Source of the DNA: a virus
DNA: 23,395 nt
Virus record (IMG/VR): IMGVR_UViG_3300005590_000079
Coordinates: 1-23,395 of that record
Direction: 5' to 3' (one strand)
The notes beneath the pieces were generated by a model. The model saw only the letters and a list, made by a program, of their open reading frames with translations, ran no database searches and had not been told where the DNA came from. The translations under genes were made by a program, and so were the position numbers. Below, one piece after another: positions 2,066 to 23,205 of this stretch (positions within the stretch are counted from its first letter, which is position 1; every line of letters begins with the position of its first letter).

Positions 2066-4102
2066 ATGGCATACAAACGTAAGAAAGGCGCAGAAGATAG
2101 AGATGGTGAGTTTCTCGCATCGCTACAGGAATTAGGCGCGTATCAAGACGCAGACCGCGACATGCGGGAATTAATGCGTGAACAGGATGCGTTTGTGCTT
2201 GATAAGGATGGGCAATGGGAAGAGCATGTAGCCCGTCAGATGGACAGCAACCGCAGGCCGCGATATACGTTTGACCAGACCACGCCAGCTATTGAATTTA
2301 TCGCCGGTGAAATCGAAGATATGGATTTTGCCATTAACGTAAGACCAATGTCTGACGGTGCGAGTCGTGACCTTGCTGACTTGCGTGAAGGCATGATTCG
2401 CATGATTGAGAATATGAGTGGCGCGACCGATATTTATCGTGATGCTGGCCGCCGTATTTTGCGTCGTGGTTTTGATGCCTGGATAGTTAAGAACAAATAC
2501 ACACACCCATGGTCGTTTGAGCAAGACTTGTGCATCGAGGCCATACCAAACGCTGTTAATCGTATTTGGACAGACCCTACAGCCACACAGCCTGATAATT
2601 CAGATGCTGACTGCACCTATGTGTTGCACTCCTTGTCACCGGAAGAATACAAAGAGAAGTGGCCCGAAGGCTCGTGCGTGAGTATTGATGACGCGCATAC
2701 TTACGACCAGTTCAGCGATTACGAGGCTGAAGTTATTGTCATTGCGACCAAGTACTATCGCAAGCCGGTTAAAACCAAGGTTGCATTAATGACTAACGGC
2801 TCAGTCTATGAGATTGACGACAAGTTCATGAGAGTCGTTGATGAGTTGGCGCAGCGCGGAATAACCGTAGCCAAAACGAAAGAAATCGAAGACAGTAAAT
2901 TCTGTTACCGCATGATGGACGGTAAAGGCTGGTTAAGCAAAGAGAAGGAAACCGCGTTCAGGTCAAACCCTGTTGTTACTGTGTATGGCAACTATGAAGT
3001 AGTGGGCTCTACGTCTAAGCGCATTTGTTCAGGCATCACAATGAAGATGATGGACTATAACCGCGTCCTGAACTATGCCCGCTCGCGTGAGATTGAAGAG
3101 GGCGCGTTGGCTCCTAAGAAGAAGCTAATGATGACACCTAAGCAAGCTAAAGGTCACGAGAAGAAGCTTGCGACAATGAACACGAATAACGACCCTGTTC
3201 AGTTCTACAATCCAGACGGTGAAGCTTCGCCGCCATACGAAACACAAGGCGCGACACCTAACCCGCATTTAACCAATACGGCGCAAGAAATGGCTATGGG
3301 CCTGCTGGTGACTGCTGGCGTTAACAATGCGATGAATGGGCAGTATGCAGGACGCATGAGTGAAGAAGCGCTACGTATGCAGATTGACCGCGGCATGTCT
3401 ACAACCCGCAAATGGGTTAACGCATTGGCTAAAGGCATTAAGCGCACCGGTGAGATATTGAGCGAAGCCATTCCGGTTATCTACGATACTCGCAGACAGT
3501 TTACCATTCTCAACATGGATGGAACCGAAGAAGAGGTTGTGTTAAACGAAGAGATTTACGACACGCAGACGCAGCAAATGGTGGTATTAAATGACCTGTC
3601 ACAAGGTCGCTATCAGGTTTACTGTGATACTGGACCTGCATTCAGCAACCGTCTTGAAGCTGCCCGTGATGCGCTTATTGAGCTGGCTAAGACTGACCCA
3701 ACGTGGATGGCTATGGCTGGTGATATTATGGCTAAGTCTGTTGATGCGCCTTATATGGATATCATTTCTAAACGTCGCCGCTCGCAGATGTTGCAACAAG
3801 GCTTGATTCCGTTTGATGAAATGACAGACGAAGAGAAACAGCAAATGCAAGCCGCTGCTCAGAATCAACAACCAGACGCTAATACGCTGCTGGCAATGGC
3901 TGAGATGGAGAAAGCCAAGGCTGACCAAGCTGACGCGCTGACGAAACAGGCAGAGGTCCAGGTTAAGGCGTTTGATGCAGAAACCAAACGCCAGAAGGTT
4001 ACGATTGATGCGCAGAAGGCCAGCGCTGACATAGTGAATAAAAACACTGACACAGTTAGTAAGCGCATTGAGAATGCGCGTAAGTTAACAGGATTGCAGT
4101 AG
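2066..4102 (+). CDS. Portal protein (P22-type)
   Basis: This 678-residue protein would form the dodecameric ring at one capsid vertex that serves as DNA entry and exit channel and binds terminase and the gp4-like adaptor. It carries the P22 portal-family signature RRPRYTFDQTTPAIEFIAGE near residues 64-83, followed by ...MDFAINVRPMSDGA. The last 130 or so residues are a long Ala/Lys/Gln-rich helix (EMEKAKADQADALTKQAE...), as in the portal barrel and C-terminal helices. A GTG at 2054 would add four residues, but it abuts the terL stop. ATG 2066 follows GTGAGAAA at workable spacing and gives the natural N-terminus MAYKRKKG. A hairpin follows the stop at once. Confidence 0.93.
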   Translation: MAYKRKKGAEDRDGEFLASLQELGAYQDADRDMRELMREQDAFVLDKDGQWEEHVARQMDSNRRPRYTFDQTTPAIEFIAGEIEDMDFAINVRPMSDGASRDLADLREGMIRMIENMSGATDIYRDAGRRILRRGFDAWIVKNKYTHPWSFEQDLCIEAIPNAVNRIWTDPTATQPDNSDADCTYVLHSLSPEEYKEKWPEGSCVSIDDAHTYDQFSDYEAEVIVIATKYYRKPVKTKVALMTNGSVYEIDDKFMRVVDELAQRGITVAKTKEIEDSKFCYRMMDGKGWLSKEKETAFRSNPVVTVYGNYEVVGSTSKRICSGITMKMMDYNRVLNYARSREIEEGALAPKKKLMMTPKQAKGHEKKLATMNTNNDPVQFYNPDGEASPPYETQGATPNPHLTNTAQEMAMGLLVTAGVNNAMNGQYAGRMSEEALRMQIDRGMSTTRKWVNALAKGIKRTGEILSEAIPVIYDTRRQFTILNMDGTEEEVVLNEEIYDTQTQQMVVLNDLSQGRYQVYCDTGPAFSNRLEAARDALIELAKTDPTWMAMAGDIMAKSVDAPYMDIISKRRRSQMLQQGLIPFDEMTDEEKQQMQAAAQNQQPDANTLLAMAEMEKAKADQADALTKQAEVQVKAFDAETKRQKVTIDAQKASADIVNKNTDTVSKRIENARKLTGLQ

Positions 4103-4120
4103 GGGCTAGTTAGCCCCTTC
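4102..4120 (+). terminator. Hairpin between portal and the leftward operon
   Basis: A perfect 7-bp inverted repeat, GGGGCTA (4102-4108) and TAGCCCC (4111-4117), is followed by the partly T-rich TTCTGTTATT. It overlaps the portal stop codon, and the stop of the convergent gene at 4110-4112 lies inside it. It probably ends or attenuates rightward transcription from the packaging genes. Read leftward it has no T-run, so it would be a weaker stop for the opposing operon. Confidence 0.6.
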
Positions 4121-4301
4121 TGTTATTCCGCTTATGCCAGCAGTCAATAACCTTTTCAATATCACTGACAATGGCCGTTGGGTAAACTTGGATGCATAGG
4201 CAGTGGTTATACAACGCAAGCTTTGGGGTTTCTGCGCGTCCAGTGTAAATTTCACCTCTACACTCCCAAACCCCATTAACTTTCTTTATGTGTGGTTTCA
4301 T
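4110..4301 (-). CDS. Small hypothetical phage protein
   Basis: This 63-residue protein (MKPHIKKVNGVWECRGE...) is the last gene of the leftward operon. Its beginning, KKVNGVWECRG, resembles a class of short phage proteins with a 'KVNGVW.C' strand followed by a helix that I have seen without a known function. The rest reads as a small beta-beta-alpha fold (TPKLALYNHCLCIQVY). It has three cysteines, in WECRG, NHCLC. The start at 4301 overlaps the TGA of the preceding 31-residue gene (ATGA) and has a GGGG Shine-Dalgarno 5 bases upstream. No function can be assigned. Confidence 0.6.
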   Translation of the reverse strand: MKPHIKKVNGVWECRGEIYTGRAETPKLALYNHCLCIQVYPTAIVSDIEKVIDCWHKRNNRRG

Positions 4302-4393
4302 TTTAACCCCAACAAAGCCGTAAACAGCACAAAAACAATAAAACCTACATTCACCGCTATCAAGCAGGCGATTACTTTTTGGTCCTTATCCAT
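4298..4393 (-). CDS. 31-residue single-span membrane peptide
   Basis: This is a very short frame reading MDKDQKVIACLIAVNVGFIV and on to ...LLGLK. After a charged N-terminus it is almost entirely one hydrophobic segment (about residues 7-29), so an N-in single-pass inner-membrane peptide is expected. Support for expression is a strong Shine-Dalgarno (GGAAGGGG) about 6 bases upstream, a TGATG overlap with the gene before it, and an ATGA overlap with the gene after it. The type is common among phage small membrane proteins, such as lysis modulators and exclusion proteins, but no specific role can be read. Confidence 0.55.
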   Translation of the reverse strand: MDKDQKVIACLIAVNVGFIVFVLFTALLGLK

Positions 4394-5082: not shown

Positions 5083-5296
5083 ACTCAGCCCTTCCCAATA
5101 GCCCGCGCTCGACAAGCTTATTACCCAGCGCTCTAACAGTTTGTTCGCCGTACTGCTTTACGAGTTCGCCCATTAATTCCTCATCCTGGTTTTCGATAGC
5201 CAGAATCATTTTCTTCATTGCGTCTTGAACGTTCGCCACAGTAGTATCGTGTTCGCGCTTGATGTCGATGGATTGTGCTAGTTTGGATTTTTTCAT
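5072..5296 (-). CDS. Hypothetical helical protein, 74 residues
   Basis: This small, highly charged protein (MKKSKLAQSIDIKREHDTTV...) is probably all-helical. It has a central segment AMKKMILAIENQDEELMGEL that could form an amphipathic or coiled-coil helix, then VKQYGEQTVRALGNKLVERG. It has no membrane span and no recognised motif. ATG 5296 is preceded by GAGGG at 5 bases and overlaps the regulator stop (ATGA), so the two are translated together. It could act with the regulator, but this is only positional inference. Confidence 0.6.
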   Translation of the reverse strand: MKKSKLAQSIDIKREHDTTVANVQDAMKKMILAIENQDEELMGELVKQYGEQTVRALGNKLVERGLLGRAEYGH

Positions 5297-5535
5297 ATAT
5301 CCCTCATATCTTTAATAACAACAGACGGCTTACCCTGAAAGCATTCAATGTATCCAGCAAACGTAAGGCTTACTATTGCCTCGCGATACTTTGTTCTAGA
5401 CACGCCCACAAGTTCAGATGCGCCGCGCTGGTCGGGCAATTGGTCGCCGACCTTTAATTCAAACTTGTCGCGTATCAATCTGATTAGCTTTGTTAACTCT
5501 TCTCTACTGCTTCGCTTTGTTGCTACATATGGCAT
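5293..5535 (-). CDS. Short GntR-type winged-helix DNA-binding protein
   Basis: This 80-residue protein is the first gene of the leftward operon. It matches the N-terminal DNA-binding half of GntR regulators: helix 1 (about 11-26), LKVGDQLPDQRGASELVGVS (27-46), recognition helix VSRTKYREAIVSL (45-57) and the wing AGYIECFQGKPSVVI (60-74). There is no effector-binding domain, as often in phage regulators. Start ATG 5535 has AAGGTGA upstream at 7 bases. A good sigma70-type promoter and inverted repeats lie just beyond, so self-regulation, and perhaps control of the facing scaffold/coat promoter region, is plausible. DNA binding is well supported by the motif; its target is inference. Confidence 0.75.
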   Translation of the reverse strand: MPYVATKRSSREELTKLIRLIRDKFELKVGDQLPDQRGASELVGVSRTKYREAIVSLTFAGYIECFQGKPSVVIKDMRDI

Positions 5536-5565
5536 TACCAGTTCACCTTATCATACCCGTTATTT

Positions 5566-5595
5566 TTGTCAGATTATCACTGGTAGGATTAGAAT
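5566..5595 (+). promoter_or_regulatory. Possible rightward promoter for scaffold and coat
   Basis: TTGTCA (5566-5571) and TAGAAT (5590-5595) are separated by 18 bases, and transcription would run toward the scaffold gene at 5654. It overlaps the leftward promoter almost completely, so the two could not easily be used at once. It is weaker than the leftward one. A new start here would make sense because a hairpin closes the portal transcript and the intervening operon runs the other way. Confidence 0.3.
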
Positions 5596-5600
5596 GTCAA
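5573..5600 (-). promoter_or_regulatory. Leftward sigma70-type promoter of the regulator operon
   Basis: On the - strand, TTGACA (5600-5595) is followed after 16 bases by GATAAT (5578-5573), close to the consensus -35 and -10 boxes. The transcript would begin near 5566 and read into the winged-helix gene starting at 5535. This is the best promoter-like sequence I found in the window. Confidence 0.6.
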
Positions 5601-5624
5601 CACATGCCACGTGTCATTTACACG
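5600..5624. promoter_or_regulatory. Overlapping inverted repeats, likely operator
   Basis: Two repeats share the core CGTGT: CGTGT-N5-ACACG (5610-5624, perfect arms) and ACACATG-C-CACGTGT (5600-5614, one mismatch in each arm). They sit just upstream of the leftward -35 box and downstream of the possible rightward -10. The half-site size and position suit a dimeric winged-helix regulator such as the one encoded at 5293-5535, but binding is inferred. Confidence 0.4.
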
Positions 5625-5653
5625 GCTTTAATTCACCAAAAGGTGCTTACAAT

Positions 5654-6451
5654 ATGACAGATGCAAACCATGAGATTGAGCAGGACGTAGATGAAACGGA
5701 AATCCACGAGCCTGAACAGTTAAATGAACCCGCCGATTCATCACCGGATAGTGGAGAAAACCACGAAGAGAAACAAAACGGCATTCAAAAGCGATTTAAC
5801 GACATTACTGCAAAACGCTATCAGGCAGAGCGCGAGCGTGACGAATTAGCTAAACGACTGGCAGAACTTGAGCAAGGCAATCAACAGCCGCAGCAGGTTC
5901 AACAGGAAATTAGCGAAATCAAACGCCCTGAGTTTCCGTCTGATATGTACGATGAGGAAGCAATGCGCAAGTACCATAGTGATATGGCTTCGTATGCTGA
6001 GCAGGTCGCGGAAGTTAAAGCTAAGTCTTTTTATGAAGGCCAACAAAAGCAGGCGCAGCAGAAAAGTCAGCAAGATGAGCAATCGCAAATACTTAACAAG
6101 TACGTTGAAAACGCACAGCGTTCAGGCGTAGACCTTGATAAGTTGCGCGGCGCAGAGCAGGTAATTAATCAGCACGGTATTAGCCAAGAGTTAGCGGCAC
6201 ACTTAATGAAGGATGCCAACGGCCCACAGGTTATTACGTACTTAGCGGATAACCCCGCTGAAATGTATGAAGTGCTATCTATGTCGCCACTCGAAGCCAG
6301 TGTAAAAATTGCGACTGACATTAAAGCTAAGGCTTTATCTAAAACGCCTAAAGTGTCTAAGGCTCCCGATCCGCAACCTGACTTAAAAGGCGGCGGTGCG
6401 CTCGAAGTTGATGAATTCGAGAAAACATACGGGAAGCTTGAATTTTTGTAA
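5654..6451 (+). CDS. Scaffolding protein (P22 gp8 position)
   Basis: This 265-residue, hydrophilic, acidic and Gln-rich protein is expected to guide coat assembly and then leave the procapsid. The N-terminal 45 residues are Glu/Asp/Pro-rich (DVDETEIHEPEQLNEPADSS), followed by a long charged coiled-coil region (RFNDITAKRYQAERERDELA, KRLAELEQG). A C-terminal basic stretch (KAKALSKTPKVSKAP) recalls the basic coat-binding tail of scaffolds, followed by an acidic end. The frame is open back to 5348, antisense to the regulator gene. I chose ATG 5654 (MTDANHEI), with AAGGTG 9 bases upstream. ATG 5594 is possible (AGGA upstream), but its added 20 residues look non-coding. The role is assigned by composition and by its place immediately before coat. 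Confidence 0.8.
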   Translation: MTDANHEIEQDVDETEIHEPEQLNEPADSSPDSGENHEEKQNGIQKRFNDITAKRYQAERERDELAKRLAELEQGNQQPQQVQQEISEIKRPEFPSDMYDEEAMRKYHSDMASYAEQVAEVKAKSFYEGQQKQAQQKSQQDEQSQILNKYVENAQRSGVDLDKLRGAEQVINQHGISQELAAHLMKDANGPQVITYLADNPAEMYEVLSMSPLEASVKIATDIKAKALSKTPKVSKAPDPQPDLKGGGALEVDEFEKTYGKLEFL

Positions 6452-6462
6452 GGTGAATTATC

Positions 6463-7740
6463 ATGGCTAATGATTATCAAAGTAACGTCAACAAGAAATT
6501 GTTGAAATCATTCGTTAAAGGCATGGAGTCTTCTACTGTCTTAATGAATACCGTATCAAAGCAGCTGGTTAATGACTTTGACCCGTCAACTGATGGCGAT
6601 TACGGTCAGGTGGCAATGAAGCGTCCCGCTCAGTACGTGCCACAGCGCACCACTGACGGTGATATGTCTTCTGCGTCTGCTAACCCTATCCGCGTTGGTA
6701 AAGTGCAGGCAGAAGTGTCTAACTACGCTACTGTGTACTTGGAAAACACCCAGGTTGAAGAAGCGCTTGAAGCTGACCAGCTTGACGAGCTTATCAAACC
6801 AGCCGCTGAGGATTTGGTTATTGAGCTTGAATCAGAGCTTGCTTCATTCATGGTTAAGAATGCTGCACTTAAAACCGGCGACCCTGACCAAGCTATTGAC
6901 CAGTGGGCGCATGTTGCAGAAGCTGGCGCATTGTTCAAGGAAATCGGCGTACCTGCTGGTAAGATGTATGCCGCACTGTCTAACTATGACCAAGTAGCAT
7001 TGGCTGACGTTCAGACTTCATTGGGCGTTAACCCTAATGTGAATGAAGCATGGGCTGGCGCGGTTGTACGTGAGCGCTTTGCAGGCTTTAACCAAGTATT
7101 GACCAGCAACAACTTGCCTGAAATCACTTTAGGTAATGACCTGACTGGTATCACTTTGGCTGCTACGCCTAGCGCAACTTACACCGGCTACAAAGACACG
7201 TATCGCATGACGCTGTCTATCACTGGTTTGACTGCGACTACCGGCACCATCACTGCTGGTACGAACATCAAAATCACTGGTCGCAACATCGTTAACATGC
7301 GTAACCGCAAGACAATCATGAAAGGTGGCGCTCCGGTTCCAATTTCACTGACTGTGCTTGAGGATGCGACTGCTGACGGCTCAGGTAATGCTACTATCAG
7401 CGTATCTGGTGCGGCTATCTATGAGACTGGTGTAAATGGTGCGTTCAATACCGTAGCGTCTGCGCTGACTTCTGGTGACGCGATTGTGATTGATGGTACT
7501 GTATCAACTACCTATCGTCCGGCGCTTGCGTACCATGAAGGCTTCGTTGGCATGGGTTCAGTTGTGCTGCCTAAGCTGCACGCAACTGACTCAATGATTG
7601 TGAATCACAAAGGCGTTTCAATCCGTGTTCACAAGTTCAGCGACGGTGTTGCTAACAAAAACCGCTACCGTTTCGACGTGTTGCCGACCTTCGCCTGCTT
7701 CAACCCATTCTGGGGCCAGCAGTTGTTTGGACAAGCATAA
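6463..7740 (+). CDS. Major capsid (coat) protein, P22 gp5-type
   Basis: This 425-residue protein would form the icosahedral shell with an HK97-like fold. It matches P22 coat in length (430) and at both ends: early RPAQYVPQRTTDGD with acidic helices, and the C-terminus LPTFACFNPFWGQQLFG. A central Thr/Ala/Gly-rich stretch (about residues 222-345; TPSATYTGYKDTYRMTLSI, GTITAGTNIKITGRNI) occupies the place of the P22 insertion (I) domain that steadies folding and capsomers. AAGGTGA precedes ATG 6463 by 6 bases, and the gap to scaffold is 11 bases. The strong terminator right behind it probably shapes high coat and scaffold yield relative to downstream genes. Confidence 0.93.
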   Translation: MANDYQSNVNKKLLKSFVKGMESSTVLMNTVSKQLVNDFDPSTDGDYGQVAMKRPAQYVPQRTTDGDMSSASANPIRVGKVQAEVSNYATVYLENTQVEEALEADQLDELIKPAAEDLVIELESELASFMVKNAALKTGDPDQAIDQWAHVAEAGALFKEIGVPAGKMYAALSNYDQVALADVQTSLGVNPNVNEAWAGAVVRERFAGFNQVLTSNNLPEITLGNDLTGITLAATPSATYTGYKDTYRMTLSITGLTATTGTITAGTNIKITGRNIVNMRNRKTIMKGGAPVPISLTVLEDATADGSGNATISVSGAAIYETGVNGAFNTVASALTSGDAIVIDGTVSTTYRPALAYHEGFVGMGSVVLPKLHATDSMIVNHKGVSIRVHKFSDGVANKNRYRFDVLPTFACFNPFWGQQLFGQA

Positions 7741-7973: not shown

Positions 7974-8640
7974 TATTGTCAACGGTGCTTTGGCATGGAT
8001 ACGCATTAGCGGCATAACAGTCACCCCGACAGGTGATGAGATTTCTATCAGCTTGCAAATCCTTGATGATTGCATGGGCGAGCTTGATTTAGATGTTGGT
8101 TATTACCAGCCTGAATCATACGGACAAAGCCTAGCGTCTGACGACTCAGGGTTAACGGCTAATTTTGCAGGGCCGGTGAAAAAGATTGTCGCTAAGTCTT
8201 TGGCTGTGCTTTACGGTAAGCAAGGCGACCCGTCACTACTGCAATTAGCGGCAGAGGGAGAAAGGTCGTTAGAGCGCATGACTGTAGAAGTCGCACCGTC
8301 TCAATATCCTGAAACCCTGCCTATGGGTAGCGGTACAGAATGGCCCGTATTGGATAATCATTTCTACAACACGCCCGTTCGCGGTGATGCGCAGCGCGTT
8401 ACGTTTGAGCAGGTTATGCCTATCAGTGTTGATTGGTCGAATTGGCTTGAAGGTCGAACACTGGCAAGTGTTACCTATGATGCTGAATTCACCCTGTCAG
8501 GCGAAACTATGACAGATAGCACGTCGTCGGTAGTTGCTACGTTTAACAAGTTGGGCCAGCACAAGCTTTGCATAAAAGCCACTGACTCGGCAGGATACAC
8601 AAAAACCAATGTTTACTACTACTATGTAGAGAGGTGTTAA
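7957..8640 (+). CDS. Tail accessory factor gp4-like, with extra C-terminal domain
   Basis: In P22, gp4 binds under the portal and provides the sites for gp10 and the tailspikes. The N-terminal 140 or so residues fit that family: DIVNGALAWIRISGITVTPT, helices with LDDCMGELDLDVGYYQPES, then FAGPVKKIVAKSLAVLYGKQ. P22 gp4 is 166 residues and this protein is 227. The additional C-terminal part (about 145-227; VDWSNWLEGRTLASVTYD, then FTLSG...VVATFNKLGQHKLCIKATDS) reads as a small Ig/PKD-like beta-sandwich. Translation is coupled to the preceding gene by overlap. The gp4 call is firm; the fold of the extension is inferred from strand pattern. Confidence 0.8.
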   Translation: MITKGDIVNGALAWIRISGITVTPTGDEISISLQILDDCMGELDLDVGYYQPESYGQSLASDDSGLTANFAGPVKKIVAKSLAVLYGKQGDPSLLQLAAEGERSLERMTVEVAPSQYPETLPMGSGTEWPVLDNHFYNTPVRGDAQRVTFEQVMPISVDWSNWLEGRTLASVTYDAEFTLSGETMTDSTSSVVATFNKLGQHKLCIKATDSAGYTKTNVYYYYVERC

Positions 8641-8641
8641 C

Positions 8642-10099
8642 GTGGCATTTCAATCGCTAAACCTTGATCGCCTGTCAGTTCAGTCAATTTATGAGGTGTT
8701 CCGCTACAAAACGCTAGATAGCAAGTCAGCAGTAAAAGCGGATGGATACTTTCATGTCGATAAGTTTAATCTTAAAAATAGCACCGCGCCCATTGTAGAA
8801 TGCATTTGCGGCGACGGGACGCTTGTTTTATCTGTTGATGAGATAACCGGTAAATCTTCTGTATTGATGGAAAGCCAAAACTCATCATCAAGCAAAAACT
8901 CGCTCTATGCTAACGAGGTTATTATCCAGTCTCCGTCTGACCTGAACACCACAATCGACCCGACGAAAATGTATGTGATTGATGGAATTATTGACTTAAC
9001 CGGCACAGGAATCAGCATTGAAATTCCCGATGGCGGCATGAATATGCGCGGCTTGGGTCTTGGTGTTTCTGGTATTGTTTGCAGTGATGACAACTACACC
9101 ATGTTCACTTCACCAGTGGGTGGCTCGGGCACTATTTTTGGCACTCAATACTACATCACCACAAGCGGTGCAAATTCGCAGGTTTACGATTTAACTGACG
9201 CTAACGGGTTCAACGCGTTTGAGTTTAACGCGGTCAACTATATTGACTGTACATCATTAGGCGAGATTAACGGTTATCGTCAAGGCTTGGAAGTGGGCAC
9301 CGGCAGGCTGGGCGGCACACCTGAATTAACGCTTTCTGGCTCATGGGGTGGCGGCTATCGCATCTCTACCAGCATTGCTTTCAACATGAGCAGCTTCACA
9401 TCCCTGTTTAAGGCTGGAACCGGCTTTGTGTATGGCGGTAGATTTATCACAGATATAAACTGCAACATGCCCGCTACAGGCGCACTGATAGACTTTTCTC
9501 CTAGCAATGTAACTAATGATGAATCATTAATTCTTGATGGCGCATACGTGCAGCGACAAGGCGTTCTGGATGCGTCCGACACCACGTTATACCCAAACAT
9601 TGACCATACTTCAGTAAAGTCAAATTGGGGAAATAACACCGGCCTACCCAATACACAAAAGTACATCAAAACTGTGTGTACAGCGGAGGTTGTAACGAAT
9701 ATCGCATCGGCATCTACGTACTACCCGTTAGCTGGTACGATGACTGTATCTGACTCAGTGCAGTTTGATGCGCCGGTCAATGGGCAAATCAGACTTTTAA
9801 CTGGTAACGGCCTTTACGATATTTCAGGCACCATCCAGATTAAAGGTAACGCTGGCGACTCAGTTGATATTCAAGTTACCCGCTCGACTGATGGCGGCTC
9901 AACTTTCCCAGAGGTGATAAACCATATTGGGCTAGAGATTGCCAACTTAGCTGGCCCTAATGATTTTGCCACGTACTCTATCAACTTCTCGTCGTCGCTT
10001 AAAAAGAATGACCGAATTCGCCTAGAGGTTGAAAATCTCACGGCGGCACGCAATGTCACGATGGGTGCTGAGTCGTTTATGATAGTCACGGAGGTCTAA
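8642..10099 (+). CDS. Beta-rich virion structural protein, inserted between gp4 and gp10
   Basis: This 485-residue, Gly/Ser/Thr/Asn-rich protein starts with GTG after GAGG at 7 bases. Residues about 90-340 alternate short strands and turns (IDLTGTGISIEIPDGGMNMR, GTQYYITTSGANSQVYDL), suggesting a beta-helix or solenoid. The last 140 (from about YIKTVCTAEVV; FDAPVNGQIRLLTGNGLYDI, IQVTRSTDGGSTF) look like a C1q/TNF-type jelly roll, as at fibre tips. I have a sense of similar uncharacterised phage structural proteins, but cannot name the family. P22 has no gene at this position. It may be a collar or tail fibre mounted on the adaptor; no enzyme motif is visible. Confidence 0.75.
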   Translation: MAFQSLNLDRLSVQSIYEVFRYKTLDSKSAVKADGYFHVDKFNLKNSTAPIVECICGDGTLVLSVDEITGKSSVLMESQNSSSSKNSLYANEVIIQSPSDLNTTIDPTKMYVIDGIIDLTGTGISIEIPDGGMNMRGLGLGVSGIVCSDDNYTMFTSPVGGSGTIFGTQYYITTSGANSQVYDLTDANGFNAFEFNAVNYIDCTSLGEINGYRQGLEVGTGRLGGTPELTLSGSWGGGYRISTSIAFNMSSFTSLFKAGTGFVYGGRFITDINCNMPATGALIDFSPSNVTNDESLILDGAYVQRQGVLDASDTTLYPNIDHTSVKSNWGNNTGLPNTQKYIKTVCTAEVVTNIASASTYYPLAGTMTVSDSVQFDAPVNGQIRLLTGNGLYDISGTIQIKGNAGDSVDIQVTRSTDGGSTFPEVINHIGLEIANLAGPNDFATYSINFSSSLKKNDRIRLEVENLTAARNVTMGAESFMIVTEV

Positions 10100-11484
10100 T
10101 GCGACTACCGTTAGCGAAAGGCACAAGAAAATCGAATGGTGATTACCGGTCCAATCTGCCGGTGAATATGTTTTTGGTTGACGATAGCACAGAGAGTGAC
10201 GACGGCTACATTACTACTCACCCTGGACTGGTTGAGTGGGGCGAGACGCTAGGCCCAGCACGCGGTGCTTACTTTAATGAACGGTTTAATAAGCATTTCC
10301 GCGTATCCGGTGACTATCTACAGCGCGTACTGACAGATGGCACGGTTAGCCGAATTGGTTTTATCGGTGGTTCTGCCATTTGTTCGTTTGCCAACAGCTT
10401 TAATACGCAAGCTGTACTTTCAGACGGCAATCTGTTTCTTTATGACGACAATACGTTGACACCTATATCCGACCCCGATTTAGGTCTTCCAATCGACATC
10501 ACGTGGTTTAAAGGCATCTATGTGATGACGGATGGTGAGTCACTGTTTCACACCAACATAAATAATGAATACACGATTGACCCGCTCAAGTACTCATCGA
10601 GCGAGTTTGCAGCCGACCCAATCAAAGGACTTCTTCGCACTGACTCAAACCAGATTATTGCGTTCAATCGTTACTCTACAGAGTTTTTCTATTTCAACGC
10701 GAATGCAGCGACCGGCACGAGCGTATTAGCACCTATCCAAGGGCAGTCGATACAGATTGGCATTGTTGGAACGCACTGCAAAACACGCATCGGCAACGAC
10801 ATCTTTATTATCGGCAATCGCCGCGAAGAAAGCATAAGCATTCACCAACTCGGCGGCGGCAGCATCGCCTCAAAAGAGGTGAATAAAATACTCGACACCT
10901 ATTCGGAGTCAGAGATTGCATCGGCGTACATGGAGGCCCGCACAGCTAACGGCATTAGCTTTATGTACGTCCACCTGCCAAGGCACACTCTTTTATTCAA
11001 TCACACCATAGCGAAGAAGTACGGCGCTGAGAATGCATGGTCCTACGTCAAGAGCGGTGAAAATGAAGTGTGGCGTGGTAAGTTTGGTATATTGGACCCG
11101 CGTATCAATAAATGGGTGTACGGAGATATTCAGGACAGCAAGATTGCGCTGCTTGACGACGATGTGTTCAGCCAGTACGACGAAGAGCAAGAGGCGCTGT
11201 TCTACACACCATTTGTACCGGCAGAGTCGTTAAGCATCAACTCAATCGAGCTTTCCACAGTGCCTGGATTCGGCAGTGACGACTTTCAATGCGCATTCAG
11301 TCAAAGTTTTGACGCTGTGACGTGGGGGCAAGAGCATTGGAACAAAATAGGCGTCTTTGGTGATTACGACAAGCGATACAAGGCTTACAGGCTCGGCTAC
11401 GTCCGGCACAATGTCGCCTTCCGTTTTCGCTTTATCACTAAAGATAGAATGTCTTTCTCTGGGATGATTGTTGATGCTTCCTGA
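10099..11484 (+). CDS. Packaged DNA stabilisation protein (P22 gp10-like)
   Basis: This 461-residue protein is close to P22 gp10 (472), the tail-hub component that closes the filled head after gp4. The N-terminus MRLPLAKGTRKS...YRSNLPVNMF, a following HPGLVEWGE, repeated blade-like motifs (YLQRVLTDGTVSRIGFIGG, GIYVMTDGESLFHTNI), and the end FRFRFITKDRMSFSGMIVDA fit that family, including its beta-propeller character. ATG 10099 overlaps the previous stop (TAATG). The assignment rests on motif memory and gene order. Confidence 0.85.
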   Translation: MRLPLAKGTRKSNGDYRSNLPVNMFLVDDSTESDDGYITTHPGLVEWGETLGPARGAYFNERFNKHFRVSGDYLQRVLTDGTVSRIGFIGGSAICSFANSFNTQAVLSDGNLFLYDDNTLTPISDPDLGLPIDITWFKGIYVMTDGESLFHTNINNEYTIDPLKYSSSEFAADPIKGLLRTDSNQIIAFNRYSTEFFYFNANAATGTSVLAPIQGQSIQIGIVGTHCKTRIGNDIFIIGNRREESISIHQLGGGSIASKEVNKILDTYSESEIASAYMEARTANGISFMYVHLPRHTLLFNHTIAKKYGAENAWSYVKSGENEVWRGKFGILDPRINKWVYGDIQDSKIALLDDDVFSQYDEEQEALFYTPFVPAESLSINSIELSTVPGFGSDDFQCAFSQSFDAVTWGQEHWNKIGVFGDYDKRYKAYRLGYVRHNVAFRFRFITKDRMSFSGMIVDAS

Positions 11485-20753: not shown

Positions 20754-20810
20754 ATGGCAGGCAACAAAACCAAAGGCAAGACCCGCACCGGCGGCACCAA
20801 AAAGAAATGA
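20754..20810 (+). CDS. Tiny Lys/Gly/Thr-rich peptide (18 residues)
   Basis: The frame reads MAGNKTKGKTRTGGTKKK. It is strongly basic and probably disordered. GAGGG lies 7 bases before the ATG and the stop overlaps the start of the membrane-protein gene as ATGA, which suggests it is translated or once was. It is in frame with the preceding 12-residue peptide across a TAG. Confidence 0.4.
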   Translation: MAGNKTKGKTRTGGTKKK

Positions 20811-21271
20811 TAACTGATTTAATTCAGTTGTTGATTGTATGCGGTATTGCAGTTTTTCTGCGTACCGCTAATTCTTTTTGTCTTTCAATTCCGTTCGCGT
20901 TCACATTTTACTACTCATACGGCTCACCGCTATTCGACTCACACACGGCAGTCATAAACCACTTCACTCAGGGTATGGCGTTTATTTTTCCTGCATTCTA
21001 TGCGAGAAAACCGCTTGCTACGGCACTATGTGTTTACGCTGCATTTCATCTTTTTGTTGGCATTGATTACTTTATTTATGAGAATCAAACGCTAATATCA
21101 GAGTCTTACTTTTTGCTGAATAATGCGTTAAACTTTTTGCTAATACTTGCAAGCCTTGATAGGGGTTATAATGACAGTAAGGGATCTTATCGAAATGCTG
21201 TCTTTAATCCTATTGGGGTGGTCAATTTATGGCACAATCAGTCACATACGAAAGAGAGCGCAAAACCATGA
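20807..21271 (+). CDS. Polytopic membrane protein at start of lysis block
   Basis: This 154-residue protein is strongly hydrophobic over residues 1-118: LIQLLIVCGIAVFL, SIPFAFTFYYSY, MAFIFPAFYARK, ATALCVYAAFHLFVGIDYFI and YFLLNNALNFLLILA are candidate spans. A polar, Asn/Ser-rich tail of about 35 residues follows. It has no signal or enzyme motif. It starts at ATGA overlap with the tiny basic frame and is overlapped at its end by two other frames. Position ahead of holin-like genes suggests a lysis or membrane role, but it is larger and has more spans than a usual holin. No family recognised. Confidence 0.65.
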   Translation: MITDLIQLLIVCGIAVFLRTANSFCLSIPFAFTFYYSYGSPLFDSHTAVINHFTQGMAFIFPAFYARKPLATALCVYAAFHLFVGIDYFIYENQTLISESYFLLNNALNFLLILASLDRGYNDSKGSYRNAVFNPIGVVNLWHNQSHTKESAKP

Positions 21272-21314
21272 GCAACTTAAGCGAGATTATAGGGACGATA
21301 ACGAGGGCGATTAG
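21171..21314 (+). CDS. Nested 47-residue one-span protein
   Basis: The frame starts MTVRDLIEMLSLILLGWSIY, giving one hydrophobic segment (about residues 6-24), then a basic and strongly charged helix (HIRKRAQNHEQLKRDYRDDN). AGGGG lies 5 bases before ATG 21171, one of the best ribosome sites in the region. It overlaps the end of the 154-residue gene and the start of the next in different frames. The layout (short N-terminal anchor and a charged helical tail) recalls a very small i-spanin, or a lysis regulator. It is half the usual i-spanin length and no Rz1-like lipoprotein partner is visible. Confidence 0.5.
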   Translation: MTVRDLIEMLSLILLGWSIYGTISHIRKRAQNHEQLKRDYRDDNEGD

Positions 21315-21582
21315 TGACTATGGTAATGCGACTGTAAGCAAAGCTATCACCTATGCAGGCGTTGGCGGTATAGGCATAGGCACAGCTAATACGGCGGTTA
21401 AGGTTGTCGGTGGTGAAGTCGCGCAGCAGTGCGCTGAATACGCACCAGACTGGTTAGCATGGGCACCGCTAATCGGTGTTATTTCGCTTGCTGTTAAGAA
21501 TGCTTGCGATGTGTACTATAGACGTTTAGAGTACAAGCTAAAAGCTCAGGAATCTAAGCGTAATGGCGAAAATAACCCGTAA
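21229..21582 (+). CDS. Small holin-like protein with two possible starts
   Basis: Two in-frame ATGs are plausible: 21229 (117 residues, GGGGTGG 7 bases upstream) and 21268 (104 residues, ATGA overlap with the 154-residue gene). The shorter form begins MSNLSEIIGTITRAISDYGN. Two hydrophobic stretches follow (AGVGGIGIGTANTAVKVV and DWLAWAPLIGVISLAVKNA), then a basic tail DVYYRRLEYKLKAQESKR. A last span followed by 'YY+R+E.+++A' is typical of class II lambdoid holins. The longer form adds MAQSVTYERERKT, which recalls dual-start holin/antiholin pairs. The role is inferred from topology and context. Confidence 0.6.
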   Translation: MAQSVTYERERKTMSNLSEIIGTITRAISDYGNATVSKAITYAGVGGIGIGTANTAVKVVGGEVAQQCAEYAPDWLAWAPLIGVISLAVKNACDVYYRRLEYKLKAQESKRNGENNP

Positions 21583-21970
21583 CTACCACAAACACTACAC
21601 GGCCGGTGAGTGGTATCTACCAGACGGCCAGCTAATCTACACATTAGAGCTACCCTGGCGAAATAACGAAATCAATTCAGACTGGCGAAAAGCGTCCTGC
21701 ATCCCAGAAGGCCAATACATCGTAGACCGCGACCATACCGGCAAGCATCGCTGGTACAAATTCCGCAACGAAGAAACTGACCCGCGCACGAATATTGAGA
21801 TTCATCCTGTTTCGCTCCTAAGGCATCTGCTTGGCTGCGTTGCGCCCTGTCTCGACATAAAAGGCGGGCCAATGACGAGCGAACCCGTCGCGGTGGATTC
21901 ACTGAAAGCTTGCGAATTACTCTTACAGTGGTATGGTGAAGATTCATTTGTTTTGGAGATTGCGAGCTAA
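21563..21970 (+). CDS. DUF5675-family protein, possible cell-wall enzyme
   Basis: This 135-residue protein matches my recollection of DUF5675: IYTLELPWRNNEINSDWRKA, then SCIPEGQYIVDRDHTGKHRW, then NIEIHPVSLLRHLLGCVAPC. The His81...Gly91-Cys92 pattern (HP......LGC) recalls the catalytic His/Cys arrangement of L,D-transpeptidase-like folds, but catalysis has not been shown by anything visible here. It sits between two holin-like genes and overlaps the first by 20 bases, where a phage endolysin would normally be. No signal peptide is present, so export would need a holin. The family is fairly sure; enzymatic role is inference. Confidence 0.75.
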   Translation: MAKITRNYHKHYTAGEWYLPDGQLIYTLELPWRNNEINSDWRKASCIPEGQYIVDRDHTGKHRWYKFRNEETDPRTNIEIHPVSLLRHLLGCVAPCLDIKGGPMTSEPVAVDSLKACELLLQWYGEDSFVLEIAS

Positions 21971-22443
21971 TGGCAGCCGACCCAATTACAGCCCTGTTAG
22001 ACGCAGGCAGCACAATAATAGACAAGATTTGGCCTGATGCTGATGAAGCCGACAAGCGCAAACTAGAGCTTGCCACAATCGCTCACAGTGGCGATATGGA
22101 AAGGTTGCAGGCGCAAGTTAAGCTTTTGGTTGGTCAGATTGACATAAACAAGATTGACGCTAATAGTAAAAGCAAGTTTCAAGCGTGGTGGCGACCTGCA
22201 ATAGGATGGGTTGGTGCTGTGTCACTATTCCTAATGTATGTACCTAAAGCGCTTGTTATGACATACATATGGACCGTGCAGGCGATTACTATGCTTAACG
22301 CTTGGGATGGTGCATCTAACCTTATTGTGCCCGCATTTCCTGATTTAGGCGTGTCTGACATTATCGGATTGGTCATGGCTTTGCTTGGCGTTGCGAGTAT
22401 GCGTAGCTATGACAAAAAGAATGGTATTGATAGCAAGAAATAA
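21970..22443 (+). CDS. Holin, 3-TM gene-transfer-agent type
   Basis: This 157-residue protein has an N-terminal soluble helical part (ITALLDAGSTIIDKIWPDAD, then AHSGDMERLQAQVKLLVGQI), the family marker AWWRPAIGWVGAVSLFLMY (about residues 73-91), a second span (ALVMTYIWTVQAITMLNA) and a third (VSDIIGLVMALLGVASMRSY). A short basic tail follows. This fits the 'Holin of 3TMs, for gene-transfer release' family, thought to permeabilise the inner membrane. Start ATG 21970 overlaps the DUF5675 stop (TAATG). It is the last gene of the rightward late operon. Confidence 0.8.
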   Translation: MAADPITALLDAGSTIIDKIWPDADEADKRKLELATIAHSGDMERLQAQVKLLVGQIDINKIDANSKSKFQAWWRPAIGWVGAVSLFLMYVPKALVMTYIWTVQAITMLNAWDGASNLIVPAFPDLGVSDIIGLVMALLGVASMRSYDKKNGIDSKK

Positions 22444-22461: not shown

Positions 22462-23205
22462 CTAATCAATAATTCCAATATCGTTACAAGTATCGACTTG
22501 TGACTCATGCGCAAATAGCTTTTCTGTTGCCTTTTTATGCTTTCCATCTTTCGCAACCGATACGCCTGTTGATTTCTCCCACACGCAAACAAAGTCGCTT
22601 GGAGCATTATATTCACTGATAAACACCTCGTGACCTTCTTTGCATTTATCGCGACACCACTGCCAAAAGTCGGCGTGATTAAATTTATCTTTGTAGCCTG
22701 TTGTGTTTTCGTATGGCGGGTCACAGTAAATTATGCTTTTTGGTGGGATTTTGAATTCATCGTAAGAACTGCAGATAAAAGTAACCCCTTTCACTAGTGG
22801 CATCTTTTTTATGAGCGCGTTTTTACCGCAAATTAAATCCCTGTCATACCCGCTTGATTTTCTAGGTCTAGCATAGCCGCCAAACCATTTACTGCCGAAG
22901 CTTGCATTAAAACCAATATGCCCGACAATGAAATCCGAATAAAGGTTTTTATTATCCCTTATGTGGGTATATTCTTCTTCGTATATCCTAGATGGCAGGT
23001 CGTGACTTCTCTGCTCTTCGCAGTGCCAAAGCAGCGCTATTAAATAAGGGTTAACATCAGCCCCTATACGATTACCATCGACCTTATCAATCATATTTGC
23101 GCCGCCAACGAATGGTTCGACATACCACTGCCCCTCTTTTCGGTTACGCAGAATTATAGGTAGCAGCTCTTTTGCGTGCCTCGCTTTGCTTCCCATGTAT
23201 TTCAC
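22462..23205 (-). CDS. D12-class DNA adenine-N6 methyltransferase (Dam-like)
   Basis: This 247-residue enzyme should transfer methyl from S-adenosylmethionine to adenine N6 in DNA. Motif X is KYMGSKARHAKELLPII (2-18), motif I YVEPFVGGANM (28-38), an acidic strand end IGADVNPYL (48-55), and motif IV CDPPY with D162-P163-P164-Y165. This order is that of the D12/alpha group that includes Dam, T4 Dam and DpnII-type enzymes. Start is GTG 23205, which overlaps the preceding stop and places KYMGSK at the N-terminus; ATG 23196 would lose part of motif X. The site recognised is not visible, though GATC is suggested by group and by the rarity of GATC here. Confidence 0.93.
   Translation of the reverse strand: MKYMGSKARHAKELLPIILRNRKEGQWYVEPFVGGANMIDKVDGNRIGADVNPYLIALLWHCEEQRSHDLPSRIYEEEYTHIRDNKNLYSDFIVGHIGFNASFGSKWFGGYARPRKSSGYDRDLICGKNALIKKMPLVKGVTFICSSYDEFKIPPKSIIYCDPPYENTTGYKDKFNHADFWQWCRDKCKEGHEVFISEYNAPSDFVCVWEKSTGVSVAKDGKHKKATEKLFAHESQVDTCNDIGIID

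Follow-up and report, generated by a model that had tools for sequence, protein, structure and literature searches.

DUF5675, a phage protein family with a predicted L,D-transpeptidase fold, as a candidate endolysin

Background

Known endolysins are glycosidases, lytic transglycosylases, amidases and peptidases. The L,D-transpeptidases are wall enzymes that form an acyl-enzyme and release D-Ala4 together with any subsequent stem moieties, as described in PMC9638812. The fold can also be antibacterial, as shown by Tlde1 (PF10908), a type VI L,D-transpeptidase effector; according to the same paper, a secretion system delivers it and an immunity protein is paired with it. Here we analyze a stretch of viral DNA of 23,395 bp (IMG/VR record IMGVR_UViG_3300005590_000079, positions 1 to 23,395; hereafter the 'window'), which is a fragment of a genome and which carries, close to its right end, a gene encoding a DUF5675 protein directly followed by a holin gene. 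Judging from a predicted fold and from gene context, we consider it likely that this gene encodes the endolysin of the phage, an enzyme of L,D-transpeptidase fold that would depend on a holin.

The function of DUF5675 (PF18925; PHROG 1501) is listed as unknown in Pfam and PHROGs, and the endolysin role is newly proposed here. In the searched literature, which was accessible in part and did not extend to subscription papers and preprints, the family was named only as an unassigned open reading frame (ORF), and no report of an endolysin of L,D-transpeptidase fold was found. Deposited records of gut phages, presumably crAss-like, name distant relatives of DUF5675 (by sequence and structure) 'L,D-carboxypeptidase/transpeptidase' or 'putative transpeptidase'. 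The label therefore pre-exists, but these product names give no lysis role and no link to DUF5675.

Results and discussion

Conserved residues of the DUF5675 family

The first-pass annotation of the window had identified the protein as DUF5675, and its scores place it in that family: it matched PF18925 with an E value of 1.1e-15 (57.9 bits, above the gathering cut-off of 26.7) and phrog_1501 with an E value of 4.2e-10. No other family was matched at E ≤ 1; the protein is thus below the YkuD cut-off and has no Tlde1 domain match. A scan of viral contigs returned relatives in at least 436 stretches, from which 80 loci were kept. An alignment was then made of 72 of 86 DUF5675 proteins (those of the window, L002 to L010 and L016 to L091), the 14 omitted being mostly near-duplicates. 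All 72 proteins, the window protein included, matched PF18925.

Arg75, Gly91 and Cys92 (numbering of the window protein) were found in 72 of the 72 aligned phage proteins, and His81 in 71. All four residues were kept in each of 78 bacterial homologues, these being the DUF5675 genes obtained from 80 bacterial loci. The His81/Cys92 pattern, already pointed out in the first-pass annotation, is therefore a property of both the phage and the bacterial proteins. The four residues lie outside the patterns used for retrieval; E29, P31, W32, N35, S45, C46 and some others lie partly inside them. Cys46 was considered as an active-site residue and rejected, its conservation being biased by retrieval and the residue being absent, by eye, from Campylobacter phage DA10. 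The distance from His to Cys was 11 in 62 rows of the alignment, 12 in one, 19 in seven and 20 in two.

By a crude hydropathy script, 67 of 68 DUF5675 cluster representatives lack transmembrane segments (the exception being L051), and no N-terminal hydrophobic segment was found in the window protein. Apart from DUF5675 itself and Tlde1_dom, no family matched more than 2 of the 72 aligned members, and the YkuD profile matched none of 11 DUF5675 records. When the PDB was searched by sequence with DUF5675 profiles, no relative was retrieved, the best matches (E values of 0.074 and 0.8) being unrelated proteins. Only 24 columns of the DUF5675 profile could be aligned with E. coli DpaA, taken as a single sequence.

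Two divergent models point to an L,D-transpeptidase fold

An AlphaFold model of the window protein (predicted local distance difference test, pLDDT, 92.9; predicted template modelling score, pTM, 0.87) was compared by VIA-align with 997 PDB chains out of the 1000 best candidates of Foldseek. Twelve chains, belonging to nine entries, were found at Z ≥ 2. All had the L,D-transpeptidase fold, with Z scores of 7.4 to 9.4, and nothing else was found. Among them were Pgp2 (Z 9.4, root-mean-square deviation, rmsd, 2.6, 107 aligned), Csd6 (Z 9.3, rmsd 2.9, 108 aligned), Bd1075 (Z 8.6, rmsd 2.6, 98 aligned), an L,D-transpeptidase of M. tuberculosis (Z 8.2, rmsd 2.7, 95 aligned), DpaA (Z 8.0, rmsd 2.6, 104 aligned) and Tlde1a (Z 7.8, rmsd 2.9, 104 aligned).

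A second model was made for the DUF5675 protein of locus L081, which is 32% identical to that of the window (pLDDT 95.4). Its top eight entries (Z 7.2 to 9.8) again all had the L,D-transpeptidase fold, and the next row, unrelated, was at 2.5. Csd6 came first (Z 9.8, rmsd 2.7, 107 aligned), DpaA scored 8.2, and six L,D-transpeptidase entries were at 7.2 to 8.8. The agreement of two divergent models supports the assignment of this predicted fold to DUF5675, and with it the transpeptidase-like chemistry that the first-pass annotation had put forward as a possibility.

Pgp2 and Bd1075, which we take to have the L,D-transpeptidase fold, presumably act as carboxypeptidases, and the database annotation of DpaA is peptidoglycan meso-diaminopimelic acid (mDAP) protein amidase. 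Csd6 is named an LD-carboxypeptidase in PMC9638812. Since the solved structures nearest to the models thus include carboxypeptidases and an amidase, hydrolysis appears likelier than cross-linking.

DUF5675 resembles the YkuD-type enzymes Csd6, Pgp2 and Bd1075 in its predicted fold (Z 8.6 to 9.8) and in having the cysteine of a GC motif with a histidine upstream. It differs from them in its length of about 135 residues, in that no N-terminal hydrophobic segment was found, in an H-to-C distance of 11, in the silence of the YkuD profile and in its location in phage lysis blocks. The likeness to Tlde1 extends to a weak match with Tlde1_dom in 20 of the 72 aligned members (best E value 8.7e-4) and to the active-site spacing: residues R115, H121 and C131 are given for Tlde1a in PMC9638812, with H121 and C131 10 apart, which is nearly the spacing of R75, H81 and C92 in DUF5675. 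Tlde1 is secretion-delivered and comes with an immunity partner, whereas the partner of DUF5675 here is a holin.

DUF5675 occupies the place of an endolysin

Three holins linked to DUF5675, from the window, from Alteromonas phage XX1924 (in which DUF5675 is followed by a holin of the window's holin family) and from Salinibacter phage M8CRM-1, were aligned, and viral contigs were searched with this alignment. The search returned 29 loci. Four of them, near-identical to the window holin (99 to 100%), carry DUF5675, and the remaining 25 have none within the flanking DNA examined. In 22 of these 25 loci a canonical endolysin was found beside the holin, within about 0.5 kb: GH24 in 14, GH108 in 5, and SLT (L098), M15 (L117) and Amidase_2 (L120) in one each. 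The gap between the matched stretches was 32 to 507 bp in the 19 GH24 and GH108 loci. Two further loci (L097 and L099) have a GH24 gene farther off, at 4.1 and 1.9 kb, and in L103, where only about 350 bp of DNA lie 5' of the holin, no endolysin was found. Two genes upstream of the closest of the 25 holins (L096, 55% identical to that of the window) a GH24 lysozyme is encoded, with 218 bp between the matches.

Enzyme types also vary within single holin clusters: three were found in one place (M15, GH108 and amidase) in the cluster L117 to L120, and two in the cluster formed by L098 and L116. With such varied lysins beside related holins, the position next to the holin appears, from sequence comparison, to be a site where unrelated lysins interchange, DUF5675 being one of the occupants. 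The canonical enzymes (GH24, GH108, SLT, M15, Amidase_2) belong to other families by profile; DUF5675 would be cysteine-based and would act at an L,D bond.

Two other kinds of lysis module gave a comparable picture. The lysis genes of lambda are ordered S-R-Rz. In L081, a holin (phrog_6384, E value 6e-30), DUF5675 and an Rz-like spanin (phrog_214, E value 4.9e-19) follow each other, so that the lambda order is kept with DUF5675 standing at R. In phage Mu, gp22 comes after the late activator. In the Mu-like Vibrio phage ZX4290, DUF5675 stands between the late activator and two ORFs, after which come a TraR/DksA ORF and the gene for a DUF2730 protein. DUF5675 thus sits at the enzyme position of Mu and not at its spanin position, gp22 being the endolysin, gp23 and gp23.1 the spanins and gp25 the DUF2730 releasin according to PMC9239132, where the DUF2730 releasin family is also reported from Mu-like phages with cytoplasmic endolysins. 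In Helicobacter pylori phage Pt4472G, a holin is annotated three genes before DUF5675 (E value 4.8e-14), which comes directly after an ORF of 76 residues that is lipoprotein-like by eye.

The association with small membrane proteins was then counted over the whole family. A small same-strand neighbor with transmembrane segments, as called by the script mentioned above, was present in 47 of 68 DUF5675 clusters, compared to 37 of 328 control genes (non-membrane, 90 to 180 residues long and at least four genes away), which corresponds to an odds ratio of 17.6 (P = 6e-22). Among the matches listed for 95 same-strand neighbors, which cover the first 25 families, GTA_holin_3TM was found 8 times and phrog_3427 7 times, together with a few other holin families or Rz-like spanins and one endolysin. 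Several different holin families are therefore represented next to DUF5675.

Scarcity of other endolysins in DUF5675 phages

Eight endolysin families were searched for: GH24 (PF00959), Amidase_2 (PF01510), M15_4 (PF13539), SLT (PF01464), GH108 (PF05838), Hydrolase_2 (PF07486), Muramidase (PF11860) and GH19 (PF00182). The census covered 50 of 90 DUF5675 loci (L002 to L091), chosen mostly by record length. None of the eight families was matched in 44 of the 50 records, the completeness of these IMG/VR records not being shown. The counts were four for SLT, two for Hydrolase_2, one for Muramidase and zero for GH24, Amidase_2, M15_4, GH108 and GH19. None of the eight was found in XX1924, which is a complete genome. 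As a positive control, 25 holin records were searched with two of the families, and GH24 was found in 16 and GH108 in 5; GH108 had given zero matches in control genomes. GH19 matched nowhere, controls included, so that its absence is weak evidence. A pooled scan of 91 proteins of XX1924 and the window lists 25 of 74 Pfam and 25 of 147 PHROG families and is thus incomplete; we therefore relied on single-family searches. No endolysin is annotated in phages ZX4290, phi39:1 and DA10 or in the partial records 1.206.O and 1.166.O, many genes of these five genomes being hypothetical.

A larger IMG/VR record of 67,220 bp (G002; loci L208 to L211) includes the entire window, reversed and at 100% identity, at about positions 41,332 to 64,726, and at E ≤ 0.001 none of the eight families was found there. 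The first-pass annotation had seen no lysozyme, amidase or transglycosylase in the window, and this absence now extends to the larger record. By eye, G002 also holds a siphovirus-like stretch with a DUF5675 gene of its own, so that it cannot be read as the full genome of the window's phage alone. Its two DUF5675 genes are 86% identical in DNA (window positions 21578 to 21974) and are followed by different holin-like genes; either G002 is a chimeric assembly, or the enzyme gene was exchanged between unlike phages.

DUF5675 thus stands where an endolysin would be expected in lysis modules of three sorts (holin loci, a holin-Rz cassette and a Mu-like phage). Together with this placement, the rarity of the eight families in the 50 records supports, at the level of gene content, the earlier suggestion that DUF5675 may be the cell-wall enzyme.

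Proposed mechanism

Having no predicted transmembrane segment, DUF5675 would stay in the cytoplasm as long as the holin is closed. The small enzyme would then pass the inner membrane via the neighboring holin or holins and attack peptidoglycan. His81 would activate Cys92, with Arg75 in the cleft, and Cys92 would attack the mDAP3 carbonyl of a stem peptide, releasing D-Ala4 plus any strand cross-linked through it. Water would then resolve the acyl-enzyme and free the enzyme, a step that we infer. Acting in this way as an L,D-endo/carboxypeptidase, DUF5675 would cut 4-3 cross-links, which could be enough to open a wall cross-linked in this way. DUF5675 thus probably hydrolyses mDAP3-D-Ala4 bonds; its wall activity, the bond cut and its status as sole endolysin are what we infer from the computed features.

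Weighing the alternatives

A number of observations weigh against this proposal. Known enzymes of L,D-transpeptidase fold mainly shorten stem peptides or join them by cross-links, and they are not known as lysins. Foldseek alone found nothing significant in the PDB for the window model (best E value 0.83) and, for the L081 model, only Csd6 at a non-significant E value of 0.037; the fold assignment relies on the VIA-align scores and on their distance from those of unrelated rows. The YkuD profile (PF03734) gave a weak match in 2 of the 72 members (best E value 0.0059), which is no more members than the chance-like FG-GAP matched, and in one phage protein, that of L082, Glu replaces His81. The window protein reads L-L-G-C, without (S/T)H ahead of GC and with His81 and Cys92 11 apart, and does not have the strict YkuD motif, printed as HXX14-17(S/T)HGC in PMC9638812; L031 reads S-H-G-C. 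Because the (S/T)H is not kept, we describe the window protein, from its model, as a fold relative of the L,D-transpeptidases and not as a member of the YkuD family.

Gene context also has its counter-examples. A gene matching the phrog_938 'endolysin' (E value 4.8e-22) lies directly upstream of DUF5675 in L091, a papain-like amidase is annotated in the DUF5675 gene block of phage PT11-V22, and a Peptidase_C92 protein, one among the neighbor matches listed, adjoins DUF5675 in one case. SLT, Hydrolase_2 or Muramidase proteins are carried by 6 of the 50 census records, among them that of M8CRM-1, which has an annotated cell wall hydrolase. No small transmembrane gene adjoins DUF5675 in 21 of the 68 clusters; the commonest neighbor family, phrog_6637 (12 of 95, among the matches listed), has no known function; and the 25 holin loci amount to only eight holin clusters, with 12 loci in one of them. 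In phages with a second hydrolase or without a small transmembrane neighbor, DUF5675 may be accessory. For the window's phage, an endolysin may also lie in a part of the genome beyond G002 and the window.

Some of these points would suit an accessory wall editor: by trimming or re-linking stem peptides, DUF5675 would prepare the wall for opening by a hydrolase of the host or of the phage. The fold is common to the wall-trimming enzymes Csd6 and Tlde1a, another hydrolase is present in some DUF5675 phages, and there is a precedent in typhoid toxin, whose muramidase-dependent release is preceded by L,D-transpeptidase editing, as stated in PMC12729407. We nevertheless judge this unlikely, given that 44 of 50 records match none of the eight hydrolase families and that DUF5675 sits where true lysins sit. 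That the real endolysin belongs to an unrecognized family or lies outside the window, and that DUF5675 has some other envelope role such as superinfection exclusion, seems to us improbable: the window is a fragment, the genome-wide searches covered eight families and most proteins of DUF5675 phages are annotated as hypothetical, yet the same absence is seen in the complete phage XX1924, and an interchange with lysins beside the holin would be hard to explain otherwise. We give very little credence to a DpaA-like amidase, which would cut the link between mDAP and lipoprotein and free outer-membrane proteins, and so would be spanin-like rather than a cutter of cross-links. DpaA is indeed among the structural matches of both models, and no Rz-like spanin was recognized among the window block proteins with Pfam and PHROG profiles. 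L081, however, has an Rz spanin besides DUF5675, the gene of ZX4290 stands at the enzyme place of Mu and not at that of the spanins, and most of the 50 records would then be left without a recognized endolysin.

Distribution of DUF5675

If DUF5675 is an endolysin, its class, built on the L,D-transpeptidase fold, would attack a bond not known to be a target of the usual endolysins. This could explain how phages without a recognized lysin (some Vibrio, Alteromonas, Helicobacter and Campylobacter phages and some microviruses) open their hosts. It would also assign a function to a family found, besides the viral stretches counted above, in 296 stretches of prokaryote genomes and, in a tblastn search with the L081 protein as single query, in 243 phage records, including 99 from Vibrio, 15 from Helicobacter, 12 from Campylobacter, 11 from Cellulophaga and 10 from Salinibacter.

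Microviruses of 4.9 to 5.0 kb encode DUF5675 as well (L202, positions 3009 to 3419, and L203, positions 7 to 384; Pfam E values 2.8e-27 and 3.3e-31). In MH992181 (4,893 bp) the gene is flanked by those of the capsid and pilot proteins and, alone among six, is annotated as hypothetical; in MW202581 (5,035 bp) it is among three hypothetical genes. For these single-stranded DNA phages, DUF5675 is a candidate for the lysis function. The M15 peptidases of microviruses, proposed in PMC3394797 to be acquired endolysins, are a parallel case.

On Bacteroidota chromosomes a recurrent cassette was observed, made of a protein of about 252 residues, DUF5675, and membrane proteins of about 70 to 86 and then about 58 to 65 residues (for example L182, positions 5190 to 6772, and L138, positions 5222 to 6840, in the set L122 to L201). 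Some genomes appear to have two or three such loci, and the protein of about 252 residues matched no Pfam family in the two cases tested. The cassette could be a domesticated set of holin and enzyme, perhaps used for protein release.

A more general statement is tentative, and we put it at somewhat less than an even chance. DUF5675 would be a widespread class of endolysins, cysteine-based and of L,D-transpeptidase fold, hydrolyzing mDAP3-D-Ala4 bonds, those of cross-linked stems included. Many tailed phages (of Vibrio, Alteromonas, Helicobacter, Campylobacter and Bacteroidota), as well as single-stranded DNA microviruses, would use it as their principal lysin. Bacteria would have taken over this enzyme too, combining it with small membrane proteins in a cassette on the chromosome.

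In a phage of 280 kb, an SLT transglycosylase domain and DUF5675 are encoded in one very long open frame (L088, positions 8237 to 10837), whose product is perhaps a virion protein. A protein of 1251 residues in Ralstonia phage RP31 is also named as DUF5675-containing.

The lysis block of the window and its surroundings

The right end of the window contains four overlapping ORFs on the plus strand (Table 1). The first-pass annotation had DUF5675 flanked by two holin-like genes. This holds for the downstream gene, a firm holin that matched GTA_holin_3TM with an E value of 8.4e-18 (65.5 bits, above the cut-off of 24.8) and the phrog_3427 holin with an E value of 1.4e-33. The upstream product is only weakly holin-like: its match with Phage_holin_2_3 has an E value of 0.047 (14.1 bits, below the cut-off of 28.8), that with the phrog_13738 'membrane protein' an E value of 9.4e-4, and no transmembrane segment was predicted in it by the hydropathy script. 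A protein similar to it, by eye, is encoded directly 5' of DUF5675 in L021. The ORF at the head of the block is identical to one in L008 that has two hydrophobic segments. The start codon of the holin and the stop codon of DUF5675 have one base in common (TAATG). None of the four block proteins matched NCBIfam.

Table 1. Features at the right end of the window
Feature	Position	Strand	Evidence
154-residue ORF at the head of the block, with predicted transmembrane segments; possible accessory lysis gene	20807..21271	+	phrog_14688 'lipoprotein', weak match, E 3.6e-4
117-residue, weakly holin-like ORF; 20-nt overlap with the DUF5675 start	21229..21582	+	Phage_holin_2_3 and phrog_13738, weak
DUF5675 protein, 135 residues; proposed endolysin of L,D-transpeptidase fold; proposed catalytic C92 and H81, conserved R75	21563..21970	+	PF18925, predicted fold, conservation
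157-residue holin with three transmembrane segments	21970..22443	+	GTA_holin_3TM and phrog_3427
D12-class adenine DNA methyltransferase; ends the block, outside it	22462..23205	-	Pfam/PHROG matches

The families of the phage stabilisation protein and of P22 gp7 (Pfam) were matched among the window proteins, and matches to the P22 portal and P22 coat protein, obtained in the scan pooled with XX1924, are presumably the window's. From these P22-type families, the window looks like part of a P22-like podovirus.

A gene of XX1924 among the replication genes (160 residues; L011, positions 27957 to 28439) is named 'multimodular transpeptidase-transglycosylase'; by eye its product is unlike such an enzyme, and the name is likely a misannotation. 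Genes of the receiver type were seen directly 5' of DUF5675 in XX1924 (an annotated response regulator) and in L017 (a Response_reg match), and in PT11-V22 an annotated sensor kinase-response regulator gene lies five genes upstream; the loci concerned are L011, positions 38124 to 38537, L017, positions 9562 to 10011, and L013, positions 3925 to 4374. A link between such signalling genes and the timing of lysis is possible.

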